From assembly GCA_013697295.1 (NCBI GenBank), contig JACCXF010000208.1, forward strand, positions 1 to 36,782: DNA of 36,782 nt. Reading direction: 5' to 3'. This document shows positions 27,205 to 28,950 of this stretch, one piece after another. How positions within the stretch are numbered: the first letter of the stretch is position 1; every line of letters begins with the position of its first letter. Below the pieces are notes generated by a model. That model ran no database searches, was not told the origin of the DNA, and saw only the letters and a list, made by a program, of their open reading frames with translations. The position numbers were made by a program, and so were the translations under genes. This stretch comes from Actinomycetota bacterium (GTDB lineage Bacteria > Actinomycetota > CADDZG01 > WHSQ01).

Positions 27205-27696
27205 ATGGCCACGCTAGGCCGCGCCATCGGTGGTTGGAACGTCGTGCTCGAGATGGCCGCGACCTTGCCCGGACCGCCCGAAGTCGTGTGGGACTTGATC
27301 ACCGATTGGGAGCATCAGGACGACTGGATGCTTGAGGCGAGCGACTTCGTAGTCCTGGGGTCGCAGCGCGAGGGCGTCGGTGTCGAGGCTGAAGCGACGA
27401 TCAAGATCGGCGGCGTGAAAACTCGGGACCGGATACGGGTGGTCGCGTGGGAGCCGCTTCGCCTTCTCTCGATCGCACACGAGGGCTGGGTGGCCGGACG
27501 AGGAGAGTTGTCCCTCACCCCGATCGGTAAGGACCGAACCCACATGTTCTGGCGCGAGGAGCTCGAACCCCCGCTGGGCGTGCTCGGTTCGATCGGCTTG
27601 ACCCTCTTCAAGCCGCTGATGGGCCGAATCTTCCGCCGGGACCTGAGGATCCTGGCCGGCCTCACCCGAGCTCGAGCCACAGCCCGAACCCCTTAG
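27205..27696 (+). CDS. SRPBCC family protein (polyketide cyclase/START-like)
   Basis: NVVLEMAATLPGPPEVVWDLITDWEHQDDWMLEASDFVVLGSQREGVGVEAEATI...IRVVAWEPLRLLSIAHEGWVAGRGELSLTPIGKDRTHMFWREEL; SD GGAGGGATGAG before ATG. Confidence 0.85.
   Translation: MATLGRAIGGWNVVLEMAATLPGPPEVVWDLITDWEHQDDWMLEASDFVVLGSQREGVGVEAEATIKIGGVKTRDRIRVVAWEPLRLLSIAHEGWVAGRGELSLTPIGKDRTHMFWREELEPPLGVLGSIGLTLFKPLMGRIFRRDLRILAGLTRARATARTP
27658..27690 (+). repeat. Outer direct repeat, copy 1 (33 bp, 30/33 identical to 28918-28950)
   Basis: GGCCTCACCCGAGCTCGAGCCACAGCCCGAACC. Partial degenerate repeat follows (gcccgagccaccgccgaacccc, from about 27696). Confidence 0.85.
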
Positions 27697-27791: not shown

Positions 27792-27836
27792 CGTTTGCCC
27801 CCTAGGTTGCGTTTTTCGCAATCTCAAGCGCAAACG
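27792..27836. repeat. Inner direct repeat, copy 1 (45 bp, 36/45 identical to 28747-28791), spanning the DUF559 stop codon
   Basis: CGTTTGCCCCCTAGGTTGCGTTTTTCGCAATCTCAAGCGCAAACG; internally palindromic (CGTTTGC...GCAAACG; TTGCG-TTTTT-CGCAA). Confidence 0.85.
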
Positions 27837-28781
27837 TCTGTATACCGAGCGCCTTACGTATCTCGAACGCTGTTTCTTCCGGCCGCTTTCGGAGGTCCTC
27901 CGTGGTGACGTGGAGCACTCGCCATCCGCATGCGGCTATCGCGCTCAGCCTCCGTCGATCGCGAGCCCAGTCTCTTCGTCCAGAATGGTGCTTGAAGCCG
28001 TCGGTCTCGATACCCAACCTTTCCCCGGGATAGGCGAAGTCGAAGCGTGCTACGAACTCGGATCCGTTCGACAGCCTGTACTGGCGGACAGGGCTCGGCA
28101 GCCGATGCTTGCGCATGAACTGAATGAAGCGTGTCTCGAGCCAGCTTTCGGTTGGGGGAGCGTGTGCGCGAAGCTCCAGTAGGGCTCGCAGAGGAGCGAT
28201 TCCAGCAGAGCGTGTCGACCGGTGTCTCTGGATGAGGTTGTGTAGTCGGTCGTTCGACGTCAGGCCTCGGCGGAGGGCGTCTTCCAGAGCGATCTCTAGC
28301 CGGTCTCTTTCGACGATCGCGGCCAGGTCCATGAGCGTCCGCTCAGGAGTCGTGAGGGGGATGCCTTTCCGCCGCCGGATCTCTGCCTGTGGGAGAGACG
28401 AGCGGCGATGGATGATGATTGAAACCGCCTTTGCCTTGAGGCTCCGACTCGTCGTTATCTCCGTTGTGTAGTTGCCTTCGAATCCCTCGAGGCTCATCAA
28501 GCTGGCCGCGCACCGGTGGGATGCTGCTGATCCCTCGCCGGCCCACAAACAAGCAGCCAAGGCGAGTTGTTCCTTGCTCTTGAGGGAGCCCGGGGTGGCG
28601 AAGACATGTGGGAACACTCGTTGCAGTTTGGCGGCGCCACCCACCGACTGATCTGGGAGGGAGTGAAACCGATCTCGTTCAGTTGCTCGCGATCGATGAG
28701 CCCGTACTGGCGTTCGGAAGTACGGGTGAGTTGATCGTGGAGTCGACGATTGCCCTCCACGTTGCGTTTTCCGCAATCCAT
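27802..28781 (-). pseudogene. DUF559/Vsr-like endonuclease with AbiEi-like N-terminal wHTH, disrupted by a 1-nt frameshift near 28630-28640
   Basis: C-terminal frame: LETRFIQFMRKHRLPSPVRQYRLSNGSEFVARFDFAYPGERLGIETDGFKHHSGRRDWARDRRRLSAIAACGWRVLHVTTEDL. N-terminal frame (ORF 28497..28781): QYGLIDREQLNEIGFTPSQISRWVA. Joining at GTGGCG/GCCGCC restores ISRWVAAAKLQRVFPHVFATPGSLKSKEQLALAACLWAGEGSAASHRCAASL. Confidence 0.8.
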
Positions 28782-28791
28782 GGCGCAAACG
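28747..28791. repeat. Inner direct repeat, copy 2 (45 bp), spanning the DUF559 start codon
   Basis: CGATTGCCCTCCACGTTGCGTTTTCCGCAATCCATGGCGCAAACG, same orientation as 27792-27836. Confidence 0.85.
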
Positions 28792-28917
28792 ATGCTTGTA
28801 GCGGCCTGCGAGCGCGGTGGCGCCGGCTACTTCCTGCACGATTGCGGGAGGGGCGAGGGCTGCATTCCCTGGTTGGCCGGACGCGAGGCGGTGGTGGAGG
28901 CTGCTTTTCTGGTTGGC

Positions 28918-28950
28918 GGCCTCACGCGAGCCCGAGCCACGGCCCGAACC
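28918..28950 (+). repeat. Outer direct repeat, copy 2 (33 bp)
   Basis: GGCCTCACGCGAGCCCGAGCCACGGCCCGAACC; differs from 27658-27690 at 3 positions. Confidence 0.85.

Follow-up and report, generated by a model that had tools for sequence, protein, structure and literature searches.

The window analysed here, a 36,782-nt stretch of contig JACCXF010000208.1 from an Actinomycetota bacterium, comes from a draft genome of 358 contigs. On its minus strand lies a DUF559/AbiEi-like gene bracketed by two palindromic repeats, with neighbors that read as SRPBCC and TauE proteins (Table 1). The original prediction had described the brackets as two 45-nt palindromic direct repeats identical at 36 of 45 positions, each reaching 10 nt past the ATG or the TAG, and both statements are borne out. 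The two copies share the same orientation and 80% identity, lie 955 nt apart, and start with CGTTTGC; among the direct-repeat pairs detected in the window, none exceeds their 45 nt. The nested inverted repeats described for the 3′ copy are also present, with an outer stem (CGTTTGC/GCAAACG) enclosing an inner TTGCG-N5-CGCAA stem. Compared to shuffled sequences, the hairpin of this copy scores z = -4.5; the 5′ copy forms a weaker hairpin, at z = -1.5. The 3′ repeat codes for the final residues of the open reading frame and includes its TAG stop (27802-27804), and the 5′ repeat overlaps the candidate start codons.

Table 1. Features of the palindrome-bracketed nuclease locus (positions in the window).
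Feature	Position	Strand	Remarks
Outer direct repeat, left copy, 34 nt	27657-27690		3′ end of SRPBCC gene
3′ palindromic repeat, 45 nt	27792-27836	minus	Outer stem CGTTTGC/GCAAACG, inner stem TTGCG/CGCAA
Long ORF, 345 aa (called mechanically)	27802-28839	minus	Real coding part ~27802-28632
N-terminal AbiEi-type winged helix	28640-28781	minus	Other frame; start ATG 28781 or GTG 28760
5′ palindromic repeat, 45 nt	28747-28791	minus	Direct copy of 3′ repeat (36/45)
Outer direct repeat, right copy, 34 nt	28917-28950		Between nuclease gene and TauE

The coding part of the long ORF comprises an AbiEi-like middle region and a C-terminal Vsr-like MTES_1575/DUF559 nuclease (Pfam MTES_1575, 1.8e-9; DUF559, 3.2e-6), in which an alignment places the conserved D, E, H, and D residues. 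The family profile matches positions 27835-28632; in the frame that ends at the TAG, homology begins at 28632, and homologues align only downstream of the frame break described below. The ATG at 28781 opens a separate 94-amino acid frame (ORF 28497-28781) with an AbiEi-like N-terminus, RQYGLIDREQLNEIGF... The reading frame is broken near 28630-28645, between the winged helix and the remainder of the protein, so the window copy is either a pseudogene or contains an assembly indel. The original prediction therefore needs one correction: the ATG of the 5′ repeat is in a different frame from the TAG that lies inside the 3′ repeat.

We compared 24 members of the family by profile searches. Pfam MTES_1575 matched 24/24 and DUF559 19/24, while the PADLOC AbiEi model matched 24/24 and Pfam AbiEi_4 16/24; in the window, the AbiEi-type winged helix is present in the shifted frame only. 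Aligning 24 relatives shows four invariant residues: D238, E249, H256, and D265. By profile comparison, the nearest solved structures are 3hrl, an endonuclease-like protein, and 3r3p, deposited as “Mobile intron protein”, with Vsr matching weakly. Together, these data indicate that the family protein is an AbiEi-type winged helix (wHTH) fused to a Vsr-like PD-(D/E)XK nuclease. Searches with Pfam, NCBIfam, and PADLOC models gave matches to MTES_1575, DUF559, Vsr, and AbiEi and to no Y1 transposase family. Within the class, 18 of 24 genomes carry the gene, at 1-17 copies per genome; across the phylum, 90 of the 296 genomes sampled have it at E ≤ 1e-30.

To characterize bracketing across the family, we used a set of 106 genes encoding an AbiEi-type wHTH and a Vsr-like (MTES_1575/DUF559) domain, chosen by protein similarity and not randomly. 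For each locus, the DNA before the gene was locally aligned with the DNA after it, and mismatched pairs from different loci served as the null. Fifty-two of the 106 loci are bracketed (40 by direct repeats and 12 by inverted repeats only), versus 9 of 895 control genes (Fisher p ~2e-47), a ratio whose exact value is approximate because the controls come from one contig of one genome. These controls were 896 ORF-defined genes on the 1.05-Mb contig C4 of genome G009, where 10 genes are bracketed by repeats of either kind, one of them a DUF559 gene. A thirteenth inverted-only match (L230) was dropped, as it overlaps coding sequence. Direct repeats scoring at least 21 were found at 21/69 loci within the class (null 99% = 17, maximum 21) and at 19/37 loci outside it (null 99% = 19, maximum 28); about half of the 106 loci showed no detectable bracket. 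Of the 40 direct loci, 31 have at least one copy that is palindromic at p < 0.01, and 26 have two that are palindromic at p < 0.05. At 23 of the 40, the 3′ repeat includes the stop codon, as it does in the window. Overall, bracketing by palindromes is a general pattern that is not peculiar to the window gene, and the originally predicted tie between the repeats and the DUF559 gene is upheld across its relatives. The window’s draft assembly and frameshifted gene could point to chance similarity or an assembly artefact, but this explanation is refuted on statistical grounds and we give it almost no weight: the same pattern appears in independent genomes, including the single-contig genomes G038 and G124, compared to 1% of control genes. 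Separately, at locus L019 (G002:C19) a DUF559 gene is positioned between long inverted repeats that contain several tandem units of ~77 nt.

The sequence of the palindrome differs from locus to locus. When the palindromes of the 40 direct loci were compared pairwise, strong similarity was confined to one pair, the orthologous L008/L023, and we found no genome in which two genes share a palindrome. Protein similarity and palindrome similarity are uncorrelated beyond near-identical genes (Spearman 0.05). For the window palindrome, a search of its own draft genome allowing three mismatches returned exactly three copies, with none for a reversed-pattern control: the window pair and one solo site of the kind that the original prediction had proposed to look for (C159:24964-25008, CGTTTGTCCCTCAGGTTGCGAAAAGCGCAACGCTAGGGGCAAACG). 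This solo copy lies on another contig, flanked by thrS on one side and a fructose-bisphosphate aldolase gene on the other. The core of the window motif was not found in 15 relatives, and a search of the order with the strict palindrome pattern gave no match. The inner-stem pattern matched 11 times in 85,000 genomes, in no case with the outer stem, and these matches were judged to be chance.

Family size ranges from 2 to ~20 copies across the palindromes that we followed, with the window family consisting of its pair and one solo copy. Genome G009 contains three separate families. The first (L048) has 19 copies in the DNA examined, mostly as 72-nt doublets (reversed control 0), with two copies on each side of the gene and the others at gene-less sites elsewhere; the second (L049) has two flanking and five dispersed copies; and the third (L035) has two flanking copies and four others. 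In G014, the L031 palindrome has ~8 copies elsewhere in the genome. The L244 palindrome of G124 has 12 copies, four of them around the gene in two 72-nt doublets, and none in seven other genomes. The L067 and L069 palindromes are found as a flanking pair only, with no more copies within three mismatches. Thus, three genomes (G009, G014, and G124) have dispersed families with mostly intergenic copies that are absent from the relatives searched, and on contig C4 of G009 the dispersed copies are mainly intergenic and often lie just past gene 3′ ends.

Several further arrangements were observed in these genomes. A 72-nt period is common to unrelated palindrome doublets, at L146, L149, L145, L185, L176, and L140 in G009 and at L263 and L260 in G124. 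At L182 and L183 (G009:C1 ~141575-143537), the order is palindrome, DUF559 gene, palindrome, MntA (Polbeta NTase)/HepT, and a third copy of the L035 family; here the toxin-antitoxin-like MntA-HepT pair sits between palindrome copies of the adjoining nuclease gene. A small lipoprotein-like gene at G009:C4 997706-998623 lies between copies of a different repeat (~84 nt), of which the DNA examined contains ~11 more.

We examined the L048 family for signs of how its palindrome might be recognized. Covariation was not above that of shuffled sequences, giving no support for a selected single-stranded fold, and the symmetric half-sites are invariant. These two observations favor recognition of double-stranded DNA by a symmetric protein, and double-stranded half-site recognition would be at least as likely as recognition of a single-stranded hairpin. 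Conserved, symmetric half-sites without covariation are also consistent with the palindromes being operators through which an AbiEi-type winged helix autoregulates its own gene, with the 3′ and dispersed copies forming a regulon. AbiEi and Rv2827c autoregulate via promoter inverted repeats (PMC7319586), and the 5′ copies are frequently near the start of the gene. Operators, however, would not account for the near-identical copy that spans the stop codon (the 23 loci noted above), the 72-nt doublets, the location of most dispersed copies at gene 3′ ends, or the conserved nuclease site. We consider this explanation improbable in its own right, and an operator role may exist alongside the one that we prefer below.

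The original prediction suggested that the gene could be a self-contained cassette, moved or excised through its flanking repeats. A comparison of the SRPBCC/TauE locus in relatives, also proposed there, identified this junction without the nuclease gene in G005. An unrelated hairpin (GCCGAGTGGGT ... ACCCACTCGGC) is located at this empty junction (L103; G005:C409, ~880-935), between convergent TauE and SRPBCC genes. In the window, an outer direct repeat (31/34 identical) encloses the whole unit and is a possible target duplication. Together, the gene-less junction and the outer duplication make insertion of whole units possible. Among the 40 direct loci we found no clear equal of this outer duplication, the window’s being the strongest. 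Several other loci have orthologues in a different species or genus (L007/L028, L008/L023, L014/L039, and L015/L042). L031 and L187 are same-genus orthologues; L187 retains the 3′ palindrome, with an outer stem that is related and an inner part that has diverged. By reading, one gene is common to G006 and G007, accompanied by 1+1 palindrome copies in the former and 3+2 in the latter, so the number of palindromes shifts while the gene stays put. Two findings had been named in advance as counting against the prediction, namely orthologues without repeats at their ends and a generic REP element unrelated to DUF559 genes. We found instead that the orthologues L008/L023 and L031/L187 keep related repeats and that the element is tied to DUF559 genes.

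A palindrome-gene-palindrome cassette, transposon-like or homing, that inserts or excises whole and leaves a solo palindrome behind would fit the missing gene in G005, the solo palindrome in the window’s own genome, and the outer repeat with its duplicated SRPBCC 3′ end. The nuclease is homing endonuclease-like, and the third L035-family copy in G009, just past the MntA-HepT pair adjoining a DUF559 gene, could be read in the same way. Several observations argue against such a cassette. The brackets are direct or inverted, unlike transposon ends; the five pairs of loci listed above are conserved across species or genera; units with the same palindrome are not repeated within a genome; and the window’s outer duplication has no clear equal at other loci. 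Moreover, DNA and protein searches of phages gave no family match, and plasmids gave few, weak ones. We judge this explanation to be rather unlikely. The original claim of mobility is supported insofar as a gene-less junction and solo or dispersed palindromes exist, but movement or excision of the cassette as a unit through direct repeats is not supported, given the mixed orientation of the brackets, the conserved loci, and the lack of a shared palindrome within a genome. A better reading than a cassette is a gene that resembles a REPtron and has a palindrome family of its own; the window locus would be one copy of such a unit, probably damaged.

A further explanation is that the repeats act as terminators in both directions, or as insulating hairpins, and flank the gene by chance. 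Many copies do lie between convergent genes or just past stop codons, and the empty G005 site also has a hairpin between convergent TauE and SRPBCC. We nonetheless consider this very doubtful: no terminator-like or promoter patterns were found in the region, there is no Rfam match, and the locus-private pairs, the doublets, and the dispersed families would go unexplained.

We propose, with somewhat better than even confidence, a model in which the wHTH-nuclease would bind its own palindromes and cut them, with repair of the breaks spreading and homogenizing the palindromes. The winged helix would recognize the gene’s own palindrome, and the Vsr-like nuclease would cut at or near it. Repair from another copy would carry palindromes to new intergenic sites, and the same repair would keep the flanking pair alike. 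In this manner, the palindromes would disperse from a gene that normally stays where it is; in the window genome, a single dispersed copy would remain or have formed. Another enzyme could instead mobilize the repeats. Since the promoters of AbiEi-type genes contain inverted repeats to which the encoded proteins bind (PMC7319586), autoregulation through the 5′ copy may operate in addition to the main mechanism. More broadly, we see about an even chance that these genes represent a second, HUH-independent REP system, in which winged-helix/Vsr-like nucleases recognize private palindromes, spread them between genes, and can bracket cargo genes, with MntA-HepT between palindrome copies in G009 as an example of such cargo. 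If true, such a system would explain palindromic repeat families in genomes without a tyrosine transposase for these repeats.

Our search of open-access full text found no report linking DUF559 or MTES_1575 to palindromes. These data point to an undescribed palindrome-plus-nuclease system that resembles bacterial REP elements and uses an unrelated enzyme. REP-like palindromes are widespread, and the only enzymes so far tied to them are HUH tyrosine transposases. Here, a large gene family annotated as DUF559/AbiEi is physically coupled to private palindromes at about half of the sampled loci, in many families of one phylum. This coupling suggests a function, open to testing, for a domain of unknown function; it also predicts a DNA target for each gene and provides an independent case of a nuclease and repeats evolving together.

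Individual parts of this system resemble known ones. Like type IV AbiE systems, it has a winged-helix N-terminus and an AbiEi-like middle region, and AbiEi and Rv2827c autoregulate via inverted repeats in their promoters (PMC7319586). It differs in its C-terminal nuclease and in its palindrome, copies of which also lie at the 3′ end of the gene and at other sites in the genome; no AbiEii (DUF1814) nucleotidyltransferase partner was found among the neighbors examined, which in the window are SRPBCC and TauE. With Vsr and the Vsr-like homing endonuclease 3r3p, the nuclease shares a related fold by profile and conserved acidic and histidine residues; unlike a homing endonuclease gene, however, the gene is not in an intron but between two whole palindromes, with no split site, and a winged helix is added. 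The Pfam assignment of its C-terminus is shared with MTES_1575/DUF559 restriction endonucleases, domains described within larger HEPN-linked conflict proteins (PMC3710099) or of unknown function. Insertion sequences and transposons differ in having ends of fixed orientation and a target duplication; here the ends are direct (40 loci) or only inverted (12), and a target duplication-like outer repeat is clear in the window alone when compared to the 40 direct loci.

The closest resemblance is to REPtrons, in which a tyrosine transposase gene (RAYT/TnpA-REP) is flanked by REP palindromes, with one REP family for each gene dispersed between genes (PMC6006769, PMC3733652); for some REP classes, no mobilizer is known (PMC3733652). 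As in REPtrons, palindromes lie on both sides of a chromosomal nuclease gene, in either orientation, and every gene is paired with a palindrome family of its own whose copies are intergenic, often at the 3′ ends of convergent genes, as singles or doublets. The differences are the enzyme, a winged helix with a Vsr-like PD-(D/E)XK domain instead of an HUH Y1 transposase; the palindromes, which are ~45-50 nt long without a GTAG/CGTC tag; and the families, which number ~2-20 copies instead of hundreds. A GTAG (or CGTC) tag is absent from the foot of the window hairpin, and by reading, the palindromes of other loci have no common tag. The unrelated enzyme and the untagged palindromes place the palindrome-nuclease unit outside the REPtron family, yet it has REPtron anatomy and, by analogy, would work like one.
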